Source of the DNA: Planctomycetota bacterium
GTDB taxonomy: Bacteria > Planctomycetota > Brocadiia > SM23-32
DNA length: 32,018 nt
Direction: 5' to 3'
Assembly (NCBI GenBank): GCA_030628375.1
Contig: DAOVRD010000006.1
Location: 1-32,018 of the forward strand
Shown here: positions 12,621-21,225 of the stretch, piece after piece
Position numbering within the stretch: the first letter of the stretch is position 1
Layout of the letters: every line of letters starts with the position of its first letter
The notes under the pieces: generated by a model
Told to the model about the DNA's origin: nothing
The model's input: only the letters and a program-made list of their open reading frames with translations
The model's database searches: none
Program-made: the position numbers and the translations under genes

Positions 12621-13352
12621 TTACATCGCCGTCTTGATGAGTTTACTGTTCAGGGAGTCCATCCTCTTGACCAAGCGGGAGCTGGCCTCGTAAGCTCTCA
12701 TGATTCCTATAAGCGCCACCATTTCCTTCACGGCTTCCACGTTCGACTCCTCGATGGCGCCCTGGATGACTTCGGCGTTGACGGCCGGCTCTGCCGCCGG
12801 ACCGTCGTTGCGATAGAGGCCCTGCCCTTCAGAGACCAGCAGGTCCGGACGCGGGATGTCCACCAGCGTCAGCCTGCCGATCGGTTCATCGCCGACCACA
12901 ACCTGGCCGTCGGTCTGCACCGTGACTTGCGCGGCGCCCTCGGGGACGTTCAGCACGCCGCCCTCGCCGACGAAACGATTCCCGCTCGCGTCCACCAGCT
13001 CACCGGAGGAGCTGAGGAGCACTCTGCCCTTCCGCGTGTATCGGCGCCCCGTGGGCGTGTCCAGCGCGAAGAACGCCTTCCCCTTCACGGCCAGGTCCAG
13101 CGGCCGGTTCGTCCGCCGTACGGGCCCTTGCGAGAGATCCAGCATCGGCCCGGTCAGATCGGGCCATATGGGAGACATCGTGCCCGGCTGGCCCGTGCCG
13201 GCCGAGGCGACGCTGCCCAGGATGGCATGGAAGCCGGTGACGCTCCGCTTGTAGCCGGAAGTGTTGGCGTTTGCCATATTGTCCGCCACGGTTTCCAGGC
13301 TTTCCAGCAGGCCGTGCATCCGGCTGCCCACCACGTAGATGCCGGCGTCCAT
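12621..13352 (-). CDS. flgF: Proximal rod protein FlgF
   Basis: This is a 243-aa rod protein of the FlgF/FlgG family, placed first in the operon ahead of flgG. It has the N-terminal rod motif ADNMANANTSGYKRSVTGFH (residues 23-42), a middle segment RPLDLAVKGKAFFALDTPTG, and the C-terminal motif EAVKEMVALIGIMRAYEASS. FlgF rather than FlgG is chosen because of the degenerate N-terminus and the flgF-flgG order. The ATG has GGGAG upstream and lies about 43 nt from the -12 element of a sigma-54-type promoter. Confidence 0.93.
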   Translation of the reverse strand: MDAGIYVVGSRMHGLLESLETVADNMANANTSGYKRSVTGFHAILGSVASAGTGQPGTMSPIWPDLTGPMLDLSQGPVRRTNRPLDLAVKGKAFFALDTPTGRRYTRKGRVLLSSSGELVDASGNRFVGEGGVLNVPEGAAQVTVQTDGQVVVGDEPIGRLTLVDIPRPDLLVSEGQGLYRNDGPAAEPAVNAEVIQGAIEESNVEAVKEMVALIGIMRAYEASSRLVKRMDSLNSKLIKTAM

Positions 13353-13394
13353 ACGGTCTTCTCCCGCCAGGAGGTAGGATCACTGCAATGGAAA

Positions 13395-13408
13395 GCAAAC
13401 ACTATGCC
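13395..13408 (-). promoter_or_regulatory. Sigma-54 promoter of the flgF operon
   Basis: On the minus strand GGCATA-N4-TTGC gives exact GG-N10-GC spacing, followed by T, against the consensus TGGCACG-N4-TTGCW. Transcription would start near 13383, giving a leader of about 30 nt before the flgF ATG. The same GGCATA-N4-TTGCT core recurs upstream of fliK. Confidence 0.72.
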
Positions 13409-13424
13409 GGCAGCCGGCACAGTG
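13400..13424. promoter_or_regulatory. 25-bp near-perfect palindrome overlapping the flgF promoter -24 region
   Basis: Two 12-bp arms around one central base match at 11 of 12 positions. The left minus-strand arm is CACTGTGCCGGC. The palindrome covers the -24 element of the sigma-54 promoter, so a bound protein would block it. It might alternatively be an incidental GC-rich palindrome. No T-run follows, so I do not call it a terminator. Confidence 0.5.
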
Positions 13425-13518: not shown

Positions 13519-13550
13519 GGAAGTTTTTTCCGCGTTCGGAAACCTATTCC
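13519..13550. promoter_or_regulatory. Paired GGAA-N5-TTCC palindromes upstream of flgF (putative activator sites)
   Basis: Two palindromes with perfect GGAA and TTCC arms lie at 13519-13531 and 13538-13550, with centres 19 bp apart. They are about 130 and 149 bp upstream of the -12 element of the flgF promoter. The second overlaps the stop codon of the PilZ gene. A 14-bp core (GAAGTTTTTTCCGC on the plus strand) is identical to one upstream of fliK. The position is typical for an NtrC-family enhancer-binding protein. Confidence 0.6.
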
Positions 13551-14686
13551 TGCGCGGCGAGCTCCACTTCGTGCACCAGGCGGAACAGGTAGCGCCTCTC
13601 CTCAGCGTCCGCATCGGAGAACTCAATGCGGTAGAGGCAGCGGCCCCCCTCAACTGTCCCCATCTGGACTACGGTGCCCCGAATCTCGCGATCTTCCAGA
13701 GCGTCCTCCCGCGCCGCCCGCTCCGGGGAAACGTAAGCCGAAGGACGAAACCGGACAACCAGCGCCTCGCCTTCCTCATAATAACACGGACAGACCAGGG
13801 CCAGGCCCCCCAGGCTCAGGTCGCGCAAGGTGCCCTCGCGCTCGATGTCGGCCGCCTCCCAGCCGGCCCGGAACGTGACGGGCTTATTGACAGCCACCCG
13901 GTGGGACTGCCGCGCCTCGGCCCTCCGCACGCCAAGAGTGTGCGTAAGAAGGCACGACGAAGAGCCCATCCCAACGACCTTGGTGGCAAAACCGTAGGCC
14001 CGCCCTTCATCGTAGAAGACCACCTCCACCGCCGTCCCGGCCAGGTCATCGGGAACGGCGCTCAGGCCTGCCAAATGCAGAAAATCCGCGCGCTGCTCCC
14101 CCACTGTACCCAGACAAATGGGGCCTTGTCCTTGCTCAGCGCCCCTTACCTCCACGTCCTGTCCGCGCCTCAGCTCGCGGGAACTGTAGTACACCATGCC
14201 GGAATGAGATCCCAGGCCTATCTTCGCGCGCAGGATGCCCACAGTGTCGCTGGCGCGACGAGGGCCCTCACCGGGTCCCGCCGAGCAGAAGGGCCTCATA
14301 TAGCGATCCACGGCCCGCTCGAAGACCTCTGACCGTTCCAGGATGTGCGAAGGATTGTTCGGGCACTCGCGGCTGGCCAGCTTCCTGACCAGCGCGCGGT
14401 GTCGCGGTTCCAACCCGAGATCGCCGAGCTTCTGGCCGAACTCCTTCCAACTGGCGACCAACCGACGGCGCCGGCGCACCGCTCGCAGGAGAAGCTGGAG
14501 CAGCAACAGGAAGACGGCAACGCTGGCCGCCCGGAGAATGAACAGGGCAACACGGGGCCCCATCCCCCTGCCCAGCCACTGCTGGATGCCCTTCAGGGCA
14601 TCGGGCCCCGTCAGCAGCCGGCGGGATGCGTCCTGGATTCTGAACTCCCAGATGCGCTCAAGCGCGCTGAACACATACCCTTTCAC
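13544..14686 (-). CDS. Membrane-anchored PilZ (YcgR-like) c-di-GMP effector
   Basis: The 380-aa protein is probably a c-di-GMP-responsive flagellar brake. Residues about 45-68 form one transmembrane helix followed by RRRRR, so the rest should face the cytoplasm. Residues 75-130 are helical. Residues 175-250 resemble the YcgR/PilZN flagellar-brake domain. Residues 255-370 are a PilZ domain with both c-di-GMP motifs intact: RQSHR at 259-263 (RxxxR) and DLSLGG at 289-294 (DxSxxG). The GTG start has GGAGG at 6-nt spacing. It follows flgE after 77 nt and appears to be the last gene of the fliK unit. Soluble YcgR binds the motor in enteric bacteria, whereas this one carries its own membrane anchor. 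The PilZ assignment is firm and the brake role is inferred. Confidence 0.85.
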   Translation of the reverse strand: MKGYVFSALERIWEFRIQDASRRLLTGPDALKGIQQWLGRGMGPRVALFILRAASVAVFLLLLQLLLRAVRRRRRLVASWKEFGQKLGDLGLEPRHRALVRKLASRECPNNPSHILERSEVFERAVDRYMRPFCSAGPGEGPRRASDTVGILRAKIGLGSHSGMVYYSSRELRRGQDVEVRGAEQGQGPICLGTVGEQRADFLHLAGLSAVPDDLAGTAVEVVFYDEGRAYGFATKVVGMGSSSCLLTHTLGVRRAEARQSHRVAVNKPVTFRAGWEAADIEREGTLRDLSLGGLALVCPCYYEEGEALVVRFRPSAYVSPERAAREDALEDREIRGTVVQMGTVEGGRCLYRIEFSDADAEERRYLFRLVHEVELAAQE

Positions 14687-14709
14687 GCAGGACCTCCACG
14701 GCGGAAGGC

Positions 14710-14731
14710 GGCACGACCTCCGAGGTCTGCC
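14710..14731. repeat. 22-bp imperfect palindrome between flgE and the PilZ gene
   Basis: The arms GGCACGACCTC and GAGGTCTGCC centre on a C and match at 9 of 11 positions. The site lies within the 77-nt gap after the flgE stop, just upstream of the PilZ gene ribosome site. With almost no loop it fits a dimeric protein site better than an RNA hairpin. No T-run follows, so it is not called a terminator. Confidence 0.4.
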
Positions 14732-14763
14732 GCATTCCGGCGCACATTCAATACGCTCCGTCC

Positions 14764-16467
14764 TTATGTCACTATCGTTGCGAGTTGCTGAAGTATGTTG
14801 TTTGTAACACGGACTGTGCGCGAATTCACCTGGAAACCACGCTGCGCGACGATAAGACGGGTGAACTCGCGGGCGATGTCCACGTTTGAATCCTCCAGGA
14901 CGTTCTGCCGCACGGCCCCGGCCCGGCCTTGCTGTCCCTGGGAATATATGATGGAGCCGGCGGCGGGCGTATGCCGGTAGTAGTTGGCGCCGATACGCTC
15001 CAGCCCTTGCGGATTGCCGAATACGGCCAGTCTCAGGTCGGCGACCTCCATGGTCTCACCGTTGCTGAAGGTGCCGCTCAGAGTGCCTGAACCGTCAATG
15101 CTGATGCTTTGAAGAGCGCCTGTGCCGTAGCCGTCCTGATCAATGGCGCCGGCGGAGGAGTCGCCGCCCAGTTGCGTCAGCCCGTCGTAGAAGCCAGCCC
15201 GTCCGAAGTTCGCCACTATATCTTGCACGGACGCGATCCCGGGGAACTCCAGGCTGACGTTCGCATCCAGATCCGCGAAGCCCGGATCGGCCGAGGTGTT
15301 GCCGAAGGCATCCGTCTCGCTGATCCCCTGGTAGATGCCGTTCTCATCGAAGGTGATCCCGGCGATGCGTCGGTCAGGAATGCCGGAGGCGCCGCTGCAG
15401 CTATTGACGACCAGGTCCCAGACATTGTCGTAGGCCCCGTGGCGCACAAAGGAAACCGTGAGCGAATGGTTGCGGGACTGGCGGTCGTAAATGCTGATGT
15501 TAGTCGTCTGGGCGGTTGCGCCTCCTACGTTCAGGTAGTCGAAGTCCAGCGGCATGGCGGCCGGCTGGGCCGCACTGCTCAGATCAATGTCCATCAAGCT
15601 GTATCCCTCATTGGCCTCCCGTAGGATCAGCTTACCTTCCTCAAGAGTGGCCGTGCATGCGCTGGCCCCGCCGAAGGCCGCAGTTATCACGTCGAGCAGA
15701 TCCTGTATCGTTGTGCCGTCCTGTCCGACGCCCGGTCCGTAAGTGAACGTGCCGCTGACGGCTGTTCCGTCCGTCTGCTTGCCCGCAATCGCGATCGTCT
15801 CTCCGGCCACGAAGCTCAGAAGCTGGTCCACCTCAGAGAAATCACGTGTCGCGTCTGCGATGCCACCAGCCGTGAGGGTGTAGACCATGCCGCTGGCCTG
15901 GAGCCTGGTGGTGGTCGGCTCATAGTCGCTGGCGCTCAGATTACCCTTGAAGTCGATCTCCTCCGTCCGGTTGCCAGGCAGCTCGGTCCTGTAAGGAATC
16001 AGGATATCGCTGGAGCCCTGGAGCTGGAAACCGAACTCCTCGCCCGTCGTGCCCATCCTCTGGACGCGATGGCCCGTGGAAGGATCCACCAGGTATCCTT
16101 CGGAGTCCACGTCGAACGTGCCGTCGCGAGAGAACAGGTTGCTGATGCCGTCATTGACCACGAAGAACCCCGCCCCGTCCAGGGCCAGGTCGAAGTCCTT
16201 CTCGGTTGAGGTGAAACTGCCCTGCGCCATGTTCTTGTCCACCGAGGAGACGCGAACGCCCAGACCCACCTGGATGGGGTTGGTGCCGCCGATGTCCTCG
16301 CTGGCCCGCATGCCCCGGCTGAGCGTGCGGGAGAACATGTCCGAAAACGTAATGCGGTCTTCCTTGTAACCGGTCGTGTCGGCATTGGCGATGTTATTGC
16401 CGGTCACGTTGAGCATCTCTTGATAGGCGCGCATCCCGAGAACGGCTGTCTGTAACGCACTCGCCAT
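14764..16467 (-). CDS. flgE: Flagellar hook protein FlgE
   Basis: FlgE polymerises into the hook. The 567-aa protein starts MASALQTAVLGMRAYQEMLN and carries GNNIANADTTGYKEDRITFS. It continues with the hook-type DFDLALDGAGFFVVNDG, a long variable central domain, GNPQGLERIGANYYRHTPAA, and the C-terminal helix EFTRLIVAQRGFQVNSRTVR. It is longer than E. coli FlgE (402 aa) through surface domain insertions, which is common in non-enteric hooks. GGAGG at 7-nt spacing supports the ATG. It lies 17 nt after flgD, which encodes its assembly cap. Confidence 0.97.
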   Translation of the reverse strand: MASALQTAVLGMRAYQEMLNVTGNNIANADTTGYKEDRITFSDMFSRTLSRGMRASEDIGGTNPIQVGLGVRVSSVDKNMAQGSFTSTEKDFDLALDGAGFFVVNDGISNLFSRDGTFDVDSEGYLVDPSTGHRVQRMGTTGEEFGFQLQGSSDILIPYRTELPGNRTEEIDFKGNLSASDYEPTTTRLQASGMVYTLTAGGIADATRDFSEVDQLLSFVAGETIAIAGKQTDGTAVSGTFTYGPGVGQDGTTIQDLLDVITAAFGGASACTATLEEGKLILREANEGYSLMDIDLSSAAQPAAMPLDFDYLNVGGATAQTTNISIYDRQSRNHSLTVSFVRHGAYDNVWDLVVNSCSGASGIPDRRIAGITFDENGIYQGISETDAFGNTSADPGFADLDANVSLEFPGIASVQDIVANFGRAGFYDGLTQLGGDSSAGAIDQDGYGTGALQSISIDGSGTLSGTFSNGETMEVADLRLAVFGNPQGLERIGANYYRHTPAAGSIIYSQGQQGRAGAVRQNVLEDSNVDIAREFTRLIVAQRGFQVNSRTVRVTNNILQQLATIVT

Positions 16468-16484
16468 GGAATTGCCTCCCCCTT

Positions 16485-16856
16485 CTAGAGGATCTTGCTG
16501 ACCTTGTTCAATGGGACTTCGACACCGTTGACCGTCAACTTCAGCGTAGAGTCCCTGGTGGACACGGCCTCGACCAGCCCGCTGAAGATTCCGCCCTCGT
16601 ACTCATACTCGACCTGCTTTCCGAGCAACCCCGTTCCGCCGATGACCTTGTACAGCTCCAGAATGTCCAGAAAGTTGTCGTTCAACTGCCGGATCCCGTC
16701 CACGGCCGTCAGTTGACTCATCTGGGTGATCATCTCGGAATTGCTCATGGGATCCATCGGATTCTGATTCTGTAGCTGCGCAATGAGCAGCTTCATGAAC
16801 AGCCCGCTGTCGGCGTTCCAAGTTGACGAGCTAGCCGCTGCGATCTCCATTTCCAC
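16485..16856 (-). CDS. flgD: Hook capping protein FlgD, short form
   Basis: FlgD caps the growing hook. The 123-aa protein has the conserved N-terminal segment: FMKLLIAQLQNQNPMDPMSN at about residues 20-39, then SEMITQMSQLTAVDGIRQLN. A short beta region (GLLGKQVEYEYEGGIFSGLV to the end) resembles the Tudor-like domain. The Ig/FnIII-like insert of enterobacterial FlgD (231 aa) is absent. Similar short FlgD forms occur in Bacillus and other phyla. GGAGG precedes the ATG. It begins 6 nt after fliK and ends 17 nt before flgE. Confidence 0.93.
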   Translation of the reverse strand: MEMEIAAASSSTWNADSGLFMKLLIAQLQNQNPMDPMSNSEMITQMSQLTAVDGIRQLNDNFLDILELYKVIGGTGLLGKQVEYEYEGGIFSGLVEAVSTRDSTLKLTVNGVEVPLNKVSKIL

Positions 16857-16862
16857 GCCTCC

Positions 16863-18620
16863 TTAAACCAAGCAGTCCATACGGCCCGACTCGCTGATGC
16901 GAACCCAGCCGACGCTCCGCTCTCCGAGCGGCTCGTCCAGATCGTCGGCACCAAGGTGAGAGGCGTCAACAGGCCCGTTGCCGTCGGCGGTCTCCCTTCG
17001 CTCCTCGTCCTGCCCGGGGTGGTAGTCACCCACCTCGAAACGGCTCACGTCCACGTGGGCCTCCTTCAAGGCCCGATCCAGGTCGGACAGCTCGTTCTGG
17101 ATGGCGGCGCGTACGTCCGGGTTTTCCACCCGTATGCGCACTTCCAGGACGCCGTCGCGCATCTCGATCTCCAACTTCATGCGCCCCAGCTCGGGTGGAT
17201 GCAACTGGACCCGCAATTCAGACCGGCTCCCGGACCGGACGTAGCGCGCCGCCCGCACGACTTCCTGTCGCGTCACGTCCACCGCCTGGCGCGTCGCCGC
17301 GCGAACGCCTGTGGGCGCTCCGTATCCCCCCCGCCCCGCCAGATGCCGACCGACGACACTGCCCACTGCGTCCCGCCCATCAAAGACGGATCCTTTCGCA
17401 GCACGCCCGCTCTCCGGCTCGACCTTAGGGCTGTGGGGAGCCTTCGGCCGGCGGCCGACGCCCTCGAGACGGCCTTTGAGTTCCCCGATATCGTCCGAGA
17501 CAGCGCGGGACTTTCTGCTCGCGCCGGATCGCGCCGCATCCGCTTCCTGCCACACCTGTCGGTTTTCCCCTCCGTCATAACCGCTGTCCGAGTTCAGGCC
17601 CGCTCGACTCCTGTCCGCAACGACCGTTCCGGGGCGCTCCCGACCCGCCGCCAACACCGGGGCCTGATCTGGCGTCGGGCCCCGAGGGGCGCTTGCCGGC
17701 AGAGCCTGTGTCCGGCTCGAAGCGGGTTCCTGCTTCGATCCGGTCGTGGTGGCTGCCTGCCACACTCGCCGAGCTCTCGGAGGCGATGTGCTGCGAACGG
17801 GCGACTCGCCGTCGGTTTGCGTCTTAAGTGCTCCAGCGGGAACGTCAGCATGCGGCGCATGCGGCCCATGCGGCGCATGCGGCCCATGCGGCACACGCGG
17901 CGCAAGCGGCGGGCTTCCCGTGGACGGACGCCCTGCGCGCTGTCCGTTCGACTTCGCGCCGGCGGACGGCGGCTGGGTTCCCCCGTCGGTCCCGGCCATC
18001 CGCGGAAGCGAAGACCCTCCGTTGCCACCAGTTCGCACCCTGACCCACCGGCCATCCCTGGGCGCCGTTTCGAGCGAAGGCGCCCGGCCGCGCACCCCGG
18101 TGTCGCGCACGTCTCTCGCTTGCGGCCGTGCGCGATCAGGGGCGGCACGACGCACCGGCGGGTCCATCGTCCGCGGGCCGCTTTCCGGCCGATGTTGCGA
18201 TCGCCCCGTTTGCTGGCCCGACGCTGCTCCGGACGCGGGGGCTTCGGCTCCGCCGCGGACCGGAGGTTCCGAAACCGCCCGCTCCGCCGCCGGCGGCTCA
18301 TCGAGGCCCGGCCCGCCATCCCGCGCCGGCTCGCTTGGGCAAGAGCTTGGCGTCTCAGGGCTTACGTCCTCGGACTGATCCCGCGGCGCAACCCTTGCTT
18401 CCTCCGGGTTGCTCTGCCAACCGTTCGATTCGGGTGACGCATGCTGAGCGCTGCGGTCAGGCTGCCCAACCGTCTGCAGGGACTCCTCCAAGACGGCGAA
18501 GAACCCGCTGGCACCAGTGGACTCCACCGGCCCTGACTGCCCGAGGAACTGGCCGCCCGGCGGACAGAGATAGTCTGCACCCAGCATGGATGTGAGGCTC
18601 GGACTCACGGCGGTCCTCAT
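16863..18620 (-). CDS. fliK: Flagellar hook-length control protein FliK
   Basis: FliK is the secreted ruler that sets hook length and switches export specificity through FlhB. The 585-aa product has a long low-complexity N-terminal and middle region rich in Pro, Ser, Arg and Gly. The conserved C-terminal domain lies at roughly residues 455-555, with LRVQLHPPELGRMKLEIEMR and the following VRIRVENPDVRAAIQNEL. It is longer than E. coli FliK (375 aa). I chose ATG 18620 because it lies about 32 nt downstream of a sigma-54-type promoter. The earlier in-frame TTG at 18689 is upstream of that promoter. It heads the fliK-flgD-flgE-pilZ unit. A His-Pro tandem repeat lies in the middle region. Confidence 0.93.
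   Translation of the reverse strand: MRTAVSPSLTSMLGADYLCPPGGQFLGQSGPVESTGASGFFAVLEESLQTVGQPDRSAQHASPESNGWQSNPEEARVAPRDQSEDVSPETPSSCPSEPARDGGPGLDEPPAAERAVSEPPVRGGAEAPASGAASGQQTGRSQHRPESGPRTMDPPVRRAAPDRARPQARDVRDTGVRGRAPSLETAPRDGRWVRVRTGGNGGSSLPRMAGTDGGTQPPSAGAKSNGQRAGRPSTGSPPLAPRVPHGPHAPHGPHAPHADVPAGALKTQTDGESPVRSTSPPRARRVWQAATTTGSKQEPASSRTQALPASAPRGPTPDQAPVLAAGRERPGTVVADRSRAGLNSDSGYDGGENRQVWQEADAARSGASRKSRAVSDDIGELKGRLEGVGRRPKAPHSPKVEPESGRAAKGSVFDGRDAVGSVVGRHLAGRGGYGAPTGVRAATRQAVDVTRQEVVRAARYVRSGSRSELRVQLHPPELGRMKLEIEMRDGVLEVRIRVENPDVRAAIQNELSDLDRALKEAHVDVSRFEVGDYHPGQDEERRETADGNGPVDASHLGADDLDEPLGERSVGWVRISESGRMDCLV
17849..17911. repeat. Seven tandem 9-bp repeats inside fliK
   Basis: Seven units of 9 bp, consensus CATGCGGCN on the plus strand, run without gaps. 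The first four alternate CATGCGGCG and CATGCGGCC, and the last two are degenerate. On the coding strand each unit adds three residues, giving a PHG/PHA repeat in the middle of FliK. Gain or loss of units would keep the frame and change ruler length by three residues each. Confidence 0.85.
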
Positions 18621-18651
18621 GACTGGAGAACATGCCTTTGGCCGATGGGGA

Positions 18652-18665
18652 GCAAGAGGTATGCC
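18652..18665 (-). promoter_or_regulatory. Sigma-54 promoter of the fliK operon
   Basis: The minus strand reads TTGGCATA-N4-TTGCT, very close to the sigma-54 consensus YTGGCACG-N4-TTGCW with exact GG-N10-GC spacing. Transcription would start near 18640, about 20 nt before the fliK ATG at 18620. This is the best of the three sigma-54-type sites in the window. Confidence 0.8.
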
Positions 18666-18674
18666 AAGCGAGGA

Positions 18675-18696
18675 GGCGCTTGAGCGCAAAAGCGCC
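18675..18696. repeat. 7-bp stem inverted repeat upstream of the fliK promoter
   Basis: GGCGCTT and AAGCGCC flank an 8-nt loop. It lies between the fliK promoter and the upstream activator sites. It is not followed by a T-run. It could be a weak transcription stop for the preceding operon or could shape DNA looping. I cannot tell which. Confidence 0.35.
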
Positions 18697-18779
18697 CAGA
18701 GGCCCGAAGGGAGGCTTCAGGAGGCGTATGGACGGCTAGCCAGACGACACCGCCCGCTTCCCCGCCGGAAGACAAAGCG

Positions 18780-18812
18780 GGGAGTTCTTTCCCGGCGCGA
18801 GAAGTTTTTTCC
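18780..18812. promoter_or_regulatory. Paired GGAA-N5-TYCY sites upstream of fliK (putative activator sites)
   Basis: Minus-strand sites GGAAAAAACTTCT (18800-18812) and GGAAAGAACTCCC (18780-18792) have centres 20 bp apart, about two helical turns. They are about 154 and 134 bp upstream of the -12 element of the fliK promoter. Spacing and distance match the pair upstream of flgF. They are the likely binding site of a flagellar enhancer-binding activator. Confidence 0.6.
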
Positions 18813-18818
18813 GCAGCT

Positions 18819-19451
18819 CTACAGGCTGCTGATTATCCTGGGCGCCATTTGATCGGCAACAAACCGCAGGAAGTAGCGTGGCGAATTCAGCACGAGATCC
18901 GGCCCGTACCGGCCGTCTTCGCTGACGTGGTTGCGGCGGCAGTAGGCATCCATCATGCGCTGGACGGGCTTCTGGCCGGCGTCCCACTGCTCCGAGAGCG
19001 AAAAGAGCACTCTGCCCGTGGCGGTGTCTATGAACTTGAGACTGATCTGCACGGAAGGCGTCCGGTAGGGATTAATCTGATCCAGCGACCCCATGATCAT
19101 CGCGTCCGCCTTACACTCCTCACGCACCTGCACCAGAACAGCCAGAGGCATCTTGCCGCTGACGAAAGGGTCGTGTTCGTCGCGCAGGGAGGCCAGCGGC
19201 ACAAGCACCACGTCCGTCGCCGCCGTCTCATCGGCCAGCTTCTCTGCCAGCGCCCGGCTGAAGTCCTCTCCGTAGCCGTAGGAGCTGTACCGGCTGTGAT
19301 CGAAGAACTCTACGACCGCCACCCTTCGATAAGGGATGACACGGCCCGGCGGTTTCCGCGGTGTGCCCAACGGGAGCACGTTGCAGCCGACCAACCAAAA
19401 ACCGGCAATAGCCAACAAAGCAAGGCGTGGCGTTGTTCTTTCTCGTCTCAT
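18819..19451 (-). CDS. Lipoprotein with a CsgG/FlgO/TolB-N-like domain
   Basis: The 210-aa protein starts at ATG 19451, overlapping the stop of the preceding lipoprotein gene (ATGA). A signal peptide ends in the lipobox LVGC with Cys23, so it should be lipidated. The mature part has RVAVVEFFDHSRYSSYGYGE, then FSRALAEKLADE, ADAMIMGSLDQI and a segment VQISLKFIDTATGRVLFSLS. The order of AVVxF, a helix, a GSL strand and an (I/V)DxxTG strand recalls the CsgG, FlgO and TolB N-terminal fold. This is pattern recognition, not a proven homology. As last gene of the fliA unit it may help build an outer-membrane structure around the motor or rings, as FlgO/FlgP/FlgT do in Vibrio. Confidence 0.75.
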   Translation of the reverse strand: MRRERTTPRLALLAIAGFWLVGCNVLPLGTPRKPPGRVIPYRRVAVVEFFDHSRYSSYGYGEDFSRALAEKLADETAATDVVLVPLASLRDEHDPFVSGKMPLAVLVQVREECKADAMIMGSLDQINPYRTPSVQISLKFIDTATGRVLFSLSEQWDAGQKPVQRMMDAYCRRNHVSEDGRYGPDLVLNSPRYFLRFVADQMAPRIISSL

Positions 19452-19996
19452 TCGATGCCCTTTTCCTTCTTGAAGATCTGCAGAAGCGTGAGAATCTGCT
19501 GAAGCACTTCCAGCTCGGCCTCTTCGGCCTGTCTCATTTCGTCGCGGAAGCCAAGGACGTCGGCTTGCCACGTCCGGAGCGCCGCTTCCAGTTCCTGGAC
19601 CTTTTCGTCGCCGGCTTGCAGTTGGGTCTGAAGCTGATTGACTGCGCTGCTTTTCTCCTGCAGTTGTTGCCTCAGCTCTGCGACCGTCTCCTGGAGCTTC
19701 TCGTTCTCCTCGCGTGCCTGGCTCAGCATGTTCAAGGTCTTGTTCAGAGTCTCTGTGAGCGCAAATCCCCCGGCGGCAAACGCAAGGACGGGCTCGGTCT
19801 CGACCAGTGGCGGCGGAGCCATGGTTTCGAGCAACGGAGGCGGCGTCGCCGCCGGTGGAGTCGGAGGCTGTTCGCCGGCCAGTGCTGGGGCGGTGGCTTG
19901 CGTCCCCCGGGTCGCCGGCAGGGGCGTAGTGGCGCAGGAACCGACGCACAGTGCCAATACGAGGAAAAGACCCACACTAAGAATCCTTGCTCTCAT
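19448..19996 (-). CDS. Coiled-coil lipoprotein of the fliA operon
   Basis: This is a 182-aa predicted lipoprotein. The signal peptide MRARILSVGLFLVLAL is followed by CVGSC, with the lipid-anchor Cys at residue 21. Residues 22-75 are Pro/Ala/Thr-rich and probably flexible. Residues about 80-165 form a long coiled coil (NKTLNMLSQAREENEKLQET and onward), and the protein ends in a Lys-rich helix. I chose ATG 19996, which has GGGAGG 5 nt upstream. The start overlaps the previous gene by 20 nt, and the stop overlaps the next lipoprotein start. I do not recognise the family. A rod-like periplasmic spacer attached to a membrane and tied to the motor is plausible but inferred. Confidence 0.75.
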   Translation of the reverse strand: MRARILSVGLFLVLALCVGSCATTPLPATRGTQATAPALAGEQPPTPPAATPPPLLETMAPPPLVETEPVLAFAAGGFALTETLNKTLNMLSQAREENEKLQETVAELRQQLQEKSSAVNQLQTQLQAGDEKVQELEAALRTWQADVLGFRDEMRQAEEAELEVLQQILTLLQIFKKEKGIE

Positions 19997-20246
19997 TTTC
20001 TCCTCCCTGTTCGGAGTACTCACACTGGAGCGTTGTCACGCGGCCACACGGGCAACGCACCTGTATCGCGCGAACGGTGCCGTCCTCGGCTCGCTCCACC
20101 TCGATCTCCGGCTCGCCCTCCGGGACCGGGGCAGAGGCCAGCCTCACGTCCAGCGTGCCCACCGGGACCTCGACGGCCTCCTGGCCAAGGAGGACTTCGC
20201 GAGCCTTGAGGACCTTCCTACCGCGACTGGTCAACCCGTTTCTCAT
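19977..20246 (-). CDS. Small unknown protein with a CxC...C motif
   Basis: This 89-aa protein belongs to no family that I recognise. The first 20 residues are basic. Residues 24-63 look like beta strands. RCPCGRVTTLQCEY has Cys at 65, 67 and 75, which could bind a metal or form a disulfide. The C-terminus is acidic and Ser-rich. No signal peptide is seen. It starts 2 nt after the preceding small gene and overlaps the lipoprotein gene that follows, so it belongs to the fliA transcription unit. Confidence 0.6.
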   Translation of the reverse strand: MRNGLTSRGRKVLKAREVLLGQEAVEVPVGTLDVRLASAPVPEGEPEIEVERAEDGTVRAIQVRCPCGRVTTLQCEYSEQGGENESKDS

Positions 20247-20248
20247 GA

Positions 20249-20488
20249 TCAGGTCTCTACATCAAGGTTGCGGCCGACGTTGGACGGCACTTGAGCCGGC
20301 CTCCGGTCCTCGCGCCGCGGGTCCGCGTCGTGCCGTGGGGCGTCGACGTCCTTCTGTGCAAGGTCGCTCTCTTCAGCCATCTGTTCCCGGAATCGCCCCT
20401 TGTTGCCCTTAGGCTCCTCTCTGGAGGGGGGCCTGACCCGCCTGGGCTTATGGATACTGGCAGATCTTATTTCATCCGTCATCGTCAT
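20249..20488 (-). CDS. Small charged, probably disordered protein after fliA
   Basis: This 79-aa protein is rich in Arg, Lys, Asp and Glu with little hydrophobic content, so it is likely disordered in isolation. The start overlaps the fliA stop codon (ATGA), which implies translational coupling to the sigma factor. That coupling and its size made me consider the anti-sigma factor FlgM. However, I do not see the helical C-terminal sigma-binding region typical of FlgM, so no function is assigned. Confidence 0.55.
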   Translation of the reverse strand: MTMTDEIRSASIHKPRRVRPPSREEPKGNKGRFREQMAEESDLAQKDVDAPRHDADPRREDRRPAQVPSNVGRNLDVET

Positions 20489-21225
20489 TCCTCCAGCATA
20501 CGAGCCAGATTATAGAGCGCCGCGGTGTGCAGTTGGGACACCCTTGATTCGCTGATGCTGAAGACTTCGGCCATTTCAGACATGTAGAGTTCTTCGTAGT
20601 AGTACATCACGATGATCTGCTCTTGCCTTTCGGGCAGCGCACGAATGGCGGCCGTGAGACATTCGACCTTTTCCTTCCACTGAAGCTTGTCCAGGGGCGT
20701 GTCCAGGTCGCCGGCAGCCAGTCCCGCCAGGACGTTCTGGTGGCCTTCGTCTTCCTGGGCGGTCTGATCCAGAGAGCTAACGCGGTCCCACTTCTCGTAG
20801 GAGAGGTGCTCCAGCACATCATGCCGCGTCATCCCCATGGCGGTGGCGAGTTCCTCGATGGTCGGCTTCCTGCCGTGGTTTCCTTGAAACCGGTCAATCG
20901 CTTCCCGCAGGTTCTCAAGCTGCCGGCGGGCAGACTTGCTGAGCCAGTCGGTGTGCCGCAGATGGTCAACCATAGCCCCCTTGATACGCTGGTAGGCAAA
21001 GGTTCTGAACCTGACGCCCTTCGATTCATCGAACCGGTGAGCAGCTTCCACCAGACCCAGCGTGGCAGCGCCGATCAGGTCATCGCGAGACACTGTGGGG
21101 TTCACTTGGGCCGATAGGCGGTCGGCAAGGCGATGGACCAGATAAAGGTTATCCAGTACCAGCTTCTTGATTCGCCCGGCCTTGTCGCCGGCTTCTTGGT
21201 AGGCTGTCTCAGCCAGGTTCGCCAT
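20485..21225 (-). CDS. fliA: Flagellar sigma factor FliA (sigma-28)
   Basis: The 246-aa sigma factor directs RNA polymerase to late flagellar promoters. Region 2 spans about residues 20-100, with DDLIGAATLGLVEAAHRFDE, FRTFAYQRIKGAMVDHLR and DWLSKSARR, the FliA/WhiG signature. Region 3 (residues about 105-160) includes GRKPTIEELATAMGM. Region 4 includes LPERQEQIIVMYYYEELYMS and SESRVSQLHTAALYNLARML. Length matches the family. It lies in the export operon downstream of flhG, 15 nt after a small membrane-protein gene, and so is probably under the sigma-54-type promoter at 27835-27848. No FlgM is evident in the window. Confidence 0.95.
   Translation of the reverse strand: MANLAETAYQEAGDKAGRIKKLVLDNLYLVHRLADRLSAQVNPTVSRDDLIGAATLGLVEAAHRFDESKGVRFRTFAYQRIKGAMVDHLRHTDWLSKSARRQLENLREAIDRFQGNHGRKPTIEELATAMGMTRHDVLEHLSYEKWDRVSSLDQTAQEDEGHQNVLAGLAAGDLDTPLDKLQWKEKVECLTAAIRALPERQEQIIVMYYYEELYMSEMAEVFSISESRVSQLHTAALYNLARMLEE

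Follow-up and report, generated by a model that had tools for sequence, protein, structure and literature searches.

Paired GGAA-N5-TTCC palindromes as a probable enhancer of sigma-54 flagellar operons in a planctomycete, with a candidate FlbD/FlgR-type activator

In Vibrio (FlrB/FlrC) and in Helicobacter and Campylobacter (FlgS/FlgR), a kinase and a sigma-54 activator serve the hook-basal-body genes and FliA/sigma-28 acts late; FlgR of Helicobacter has no DNA-binding domain, and that of Campylobacter does not need its own (PMC3930126). FlbD of Caulobacter crescentus binds CCCGGCA-N5-TGCCGGG (PMC3333781), lacks the receiver residues and depends on FliX (PMC3096577), and titles cited in the latter source describe the ftr2 and ftr3 pair and a downstream placement. 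DVU1063 of Desulfovibrio vulgaris, a response-regulator flagellar activator, binds GGCA-N4-TGCC (PMC3333781), a palindromic motif found at many flagellar sigma-54 promoters, with some sites downstream (PMC3333781, PMC4641369); downstream flagellar enhancers are already known (PMC4641369). Few studies have dealt with the control of flagellar genes outside Proteobacteria, and a review of RpoN-dependent flagellar genes never mentions planctomycetes. In the literature that we searched, neither a GGAA-N5-TTCC pair motif nor the control of anammox flagellar genes by sigma-54 is described. The kind of switch presented below is known, but its GGAA-N5-TTCC version, which also occurs in anammox bacteria, appears to be undescribed.

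The stretch of DNA analysed here (the window; 32,018 nucleotides) is contig C116 of a 3.9-Mb planctomycete draft genome (G000; 86% complete), which we compared with the other flagellated genomes of its family (G002, G005, and G008). The minus strand of the window carries a long flagellar gene cluster with the following features:

12621..13352, minus strand: flgF, heading the run flgF-flgG-flgA-flgH-flgI (TIGR02490 just above cut-off)
13394..13409, minus strand: sigma-54 promoter of flgF, CGGCATAGTGTTTGCT; GGCA and TTTGC invariant in four genomes
13519..13531, no strand assigned: promoter-proximal flgF site, GGAAGTTTTTTCC (coding strand GGAAAAAACTTCC); exact; centre 129 bp upstream of the -12 G
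13538..13550, no strand assigned: distal flgF site, GGAAACCTATTCC (GGAATAGGTTTCC); exact; centre 148 bp upstream of the -12 G
13544..14686, minus strand: gene for a PilZ-domain protein (PF07238), its 3' end lying over the distal flgF site
16863..18689, minus strand: fliK open reading frame from the first possible start (Flg_hook, PF02120)
18651..18666, minus strand: sigma-54 promoter of fliK-flgD-flgE, TGGCATACCTCTTGCT; GGCA and TTGC conserved in four genomes
18780..18792, no strand assigned: promoter-proximal fliK site, GGGAGTTCTTTCC (coding strand GGAAAGAACTCCC); one mismatch; centre 133 bp upstream of the -12 G
18800..18812, no strand assigned: distal fliK site, AGAAGTTTTTTCC (coding strand GGAAAAAACTTCT); one mismatch; centre 153 bp upstream of the -12 G
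18819..19502, minus strand: uncharacterised gene just upstream of the fliK pair, kept beside that pair in G005 and G002; no Pfam match
20485..21225, minus strand: gene for a FliA-type sigma factor (sigma-70 regions 2, 3, and 4)

All four sites upstream of flgF and fliK lie exactly where the original prediction had placed them, and their start-to-start spacing (flgF: 19 bp; fliK: 20 bp) bears out its figure of 19-20 bp. The motif that it had given, GGAA-N5-TTCC, is exact at both flgF sites, but each fliK site departs from it by one mismatch. The measured distances to the -12 element agree with the predicted 130-134 and 149-154 bp, and the 14-bp core said to be common to both loci, GAAGTTTTTTCCGC, was indeed found in identical copies at 13520-13533 and 18801-18814. 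The distal flgF site overlaps the TAG stop of the PilZ-domain gene. The true start of fliK must lie downstream of its promoter, perhaps at an ATG near 18620. The FliA-type factor is likely the sigma-28 of the G000 flagellar system. Two uncharacterised genes lie between fliA and fliK (window 18819-20023) and recur in the family; one of them has a lipoprotein-like start and a coiled-coil-like region, and the first of the two also precedes fliK in Brocadiales.

A second contig of G000 (C265) carries flgB, the NtrC-type activator gene EBP1, the histidine kinase gene of EBP1, a further activator gene (EBP2), flagellin, fliD, and fliS. The original prediction had proposed a search for further pairs at flgB and flagellin genes. 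This search revealed an exact pair at flgB (C265:648-680; centres 96 and 116 bp upstream of the -24 element) that overlaps the stop codon of EBP1, but the flagellin gene has a sigma-28-like promoter instead (TAAAGT, then GCCGAAAA), with similar ones in G005 and G008. At fliD we observed a near-exact pair 106 and 126 bp downstream of the sigma-54 -12 element and just before the start codon; this placement is also found in G002 and G005, and the fliD pairs are presumed to lie in the 5' untranslated region. The label "upstream activating sequence" given to the sites therefore fits the flgF, fliK, and flgB pairs but is too narrow, since the fliD pair lies downstream of its promoter. The pattern is one pair per sigma-54 flagellar operon. 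The same contig also holds a single exact site, GGAATTTTTTTCC (C265:9447), about 98 bp upstream of the -24 element of a sigma-54-like promoter (L016, G000:C265, 9340-9459); this promoter precedes the kinase gene heading the gene run that ends in EBP1 and flgB, and hints at a possible autoregulation of EBP1. Upstream of EBP1 and its kinase (L016 3299-9188) lie conserved genes for a second histidine kinase, a stand-alone receiver, a STAS-like protein, and a large TPR protein, which recur beside EBP1 in relatives and may constitute a flagellar checkpoint.

Quantification of single exact GGAA-N5-TTCC sites revealed 2 in the window against 0.38 expected, and 64 genome-wide against 49 for a reversed-pattern control. 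The single site, being only slightly above its reversed control, was rejected as a signal; since single sites are near background, the specificity is carried by the pair. Exact pairs with a separation of 4-12 bp occur twice in the 3.9-Mb genome (flgF and flgB), compared to 0 for the control. In the flagellar regions of the four genomes (235 kb in all), starts 19-20 bp apart were found for 11 pairs with at least 15/16 matches; a single pair of that quality (at least 15/16) has another spacing between 14 and 60 bp, and dinucleotide shuffles of the same 235 kb (n = 100) gave 0 pairs with at least 15/16 matches at 19-20 bp. When one mismatch at most was allowed, 10 genomes of the order gave pairs at 12 places, and at 11 of these places the neighbours are flagellar sigma-54 operons, so that the motif is not, as would have told against the original prediction, a common one with no link to sigma-54. 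The twelfth pair (G008:C46:2742) is inside an unrelated ORF without a sigma-54 site and was ascribed to chance, as were four pairs in distant Verrucomicrobiota and Lentisphaerota genomes, which have neither recognisable flagellar genes nor close sigma-54 promoters beside them. Among 30 sigma-54-like sites checked in G000, the sole one with a pair was that of fliK itself.

The four flagellated genomes together hold 14 pairs, at flgF, fliK, flgB, and fliD, all with starts 19-20 bp apart. Centres of the 11 upstream pairs are 109-196 bp from the -12 element, and those of the 3 downstream pairs 103-169 bp. All 14 therefore fall in the range that we took to mark a sigma-54 enhancer (about 80-200 bp from a -24/-12 promoter), and the start spacing puts two palindromes on one DNA face, as is also expected of such enhancers. 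The helical phasing claimed at the outset holds within the pair, where 19-20 bp amount to two turns, but not from pair to promoter, for which distances of 109, 119, 129, 133, 138, and 176 bp were measured. The flgF and fliK pairs are present in 4/4 flagellated family members, and in this respect too the original prediction withstood the comparison with relatives. At fliK, the distances from the -12 element are nearly constant (133/153, 133/153, 134/154, and 136/156 bp), and alignments of the flgF and fliK upstream regions showed little conservation besides the sites and the promoter. The G002 fliK pair, close to the end of its contig, follows the usual upstream gene and has its own sigma-54 promoter. 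Flagella, pairs, and EBP1 co-occur in G000, G002, G005, and G008, and were not found in the other family members searched, several of which are incomplete genomes. In G008, the most divergent family member, there is no clear pair at flgB, and one flagellin gene (L119, G008:C404, ~386) is preceded by a strong sigma-54-like promoter, TGGCACAGGCTTTGCG, and not by a sigma-28-like one; flagellar regulation in this genome seems to have been rewired.

The candidate activator is located as follows:

G000:C265:665-2041: EBP1 gene, directly upstream of flgB, with a histidine kinase gene adjoining

EBP1 consists of a receiver with D55 (in FTDLKMPG), a sigma-54 AAA+ domain with GAFTGA, and a Fis-type HTH, and scores as a sigma-54 activator (PF00158, 230 bits; GAFTGA present; PF02954). 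RpoN is present in G000. Of the G000 activators, EBP1 alone has reciprocal best hits in each of the three other flagellated genomes, and it had none in the non-flagellated genomes examined; its recognition helix (HTH segment ISTRTIRNKLK) is identical across the four orthologues. In a quick tree, EBP1 clusters with all the flgB-adjacent activators that were found in other lineages, and none of the other G000 activators included joins this group, with modest support (SH-aLRT 90). At the flgB-adjacent activators of other phyla (L196, L197, L209, and L213) there is no such pair.

Over 4338 bp, locus L321 matches Candidatus Scalindua sp. OFTM180 without a difference, and NCBI assigns the latter to class Candidatus Brocadiia. 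The genome carrying L321, a member of the same class as G000, is therefore a Candidatus Scalindua, and G000 can be placed in the anammox class, though in a different order. In 26/26 class loci the genes for the kinase, EBP1, and flgB lie side by side; these loci share ancestry and are thus not independent. The sigma-54 promoter before flgB is part of this persisting kinase-EBP1-sigma54-flgB cassette. The last codons of EBP1 contain GGAA-N5-TTCC in 22 of the 26 loci (17 exact, 5 with one mismatch), commonly followed by a weaker second site 21-22 bp on and then by the sigma-54 promoter. Since the middle of the site encodes varying residues (E-D-F-S, E-S-P-S, E-S-F-S, E-I-I-S) while GAA and TCC stay, selection appears to act on the DNA as well as on the protein. 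Several Brocadiales have weaker pairs 21-22 bp apart before fliK and flgF, at about 160 and 181 bp, with degenerate second sites. In two Brocadiales genomes (L336 3762-3896; L344 2567-2700), a sigma-54-like promoter just past flgL has an exact GGAAGAATTTTCC upstream of its -12 element, at 140-141 bp, which suggests a further target gene. Taken over the class, we consider it fairly probable that one kinase-activator pair governs a Brocadiia-wide flagellar regulon, also in the anammox bacteria, by way of a paired GGAA-N5-TTCC enhancer, with the flgB enhancer inside the final codons of the activator, so that C-terminus and target site would be constrained together.

The original prediction had read the sites as serving an unnamed flagellar enhancer-binding protein. 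Our results support this reading, and a candidate can now be named in EBP1. The pairs are most likely the enhancer of an FlbD/FlgR-type activator and, with high probability, each of them accommodates two EBP1 dimers side by side and drives the sigma-54 flagellar operons flgB, fliK, flgF, and fliD. We infer the following course. One dimer would bind each palindrome of a pair, the 19-20 bp start spacing placing both on one DNA face; the adjoining histidine kinase would phosphorylate EBP1, leading to assembly of the AAA+ ring; and the ring would reach the sigma-54 promoter through DNA looping and open it. The predicted targets are the hook-basal-body operons (flgB, fliK-flgD-flgE, and flgF onward) and fliD, with its enhancer downstream of the promoter; flagellin would belong to the late sigma-28 class instead.

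It is conceivable, if unlikely, that the pairs serve another sigma-54 activator, such as EBP2 or one encoded elsewhere, and that the closeness of EBP1 to flgB is incidental. G000 encodes at least 17 sigma-54 activators, and EBP2 adjoins fliC and fliD in G000 and G002, the only genomes in which it was found. However, EBP2 was rejected as the activator of the pairs because G005 and G008 have pairs but no EBP2 orthologue; moreover, no other activator examined matches the distribution of the pairs, and across the class the site and EBP1 travel with flgB. We give less credence still to a regulator unrelated to sigma-54, i.e., a repressor or architectural protein that binds at flagellar promoters. 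A repressor could act at the fliD pairs, given their presumed position in the 5' untranslated region just before the start codon, and FlbD itself also represses some promoters (PMC3930126), but the location of the pairs 103-196 bp from sigma-54 promoters, their one-face pairing, and their likeness to the FlbD core fit an enhancer, and EBP1 co-occurs with the pairs as no other regulator found does. That the palindromes are terminators or mRNA-end structures of the upstream genes, as the overlap with or closeness to upstream stop codons of three of the four pairs (flgF, fliK, and flgB) might suggest, is highly improbable, since the fliD pairs lie before a start codon and not at a gene end, the G008 fliK pair persists although the usual upstream gene sits elsewhere (L121, L122), and the 4-bp arms, two in series, are constant in spacing and vary little in their distance to the promoter.

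With a candidate activator, its kinase, a DNA motif, and four target operons named, the EBP1 enhancer proposed here is directly testable. One close likeness is to FlbD and its ftr sites: both concern sigma-54 flagellar operons and palindrome halves split by N5, and the motif matches the FlbD core in length and in its outer bases. The two differ at the third base of each half (GGAA-N5-TTCC here, GGCA-N5-TGCC in the FlbD core), although the third position is C in 3/28 sites and one site (G002 flgB, GGCAGGACTTGCC) is an exact FlbD core. An apparent change of specificity needs explaining: FlbD-like helices read GGCA-N5-TGCC in Caulobacter and apparently GGAA-N5-TTCC here. By analogy, EBP1 would work like FlbD; unlike FlbD, whose receiver is without phosphorylation residues, it has a phospho-acceptor and an adjacent kinase gene. 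Since EBP1 scores below the cut-offs of the NCBIfam models for FlbD (NF050807: 348.5 bits; cut-off 750) and Campylobacter-type FlgR (NF049963: 300.7 bits; cut-off 750), we file it under neither name. DVU1063 differs in its N4 motif, in downstream sites at 40-70 bp as opposed to 103-169 bp here, and in its atypical receiver. With FlrB/FlrC and FlgS/FlgR the system shares a kinase plus a sigma-54 activator, and FliA/sigma-28 for late genes, and it differs from them in motif and phylum.
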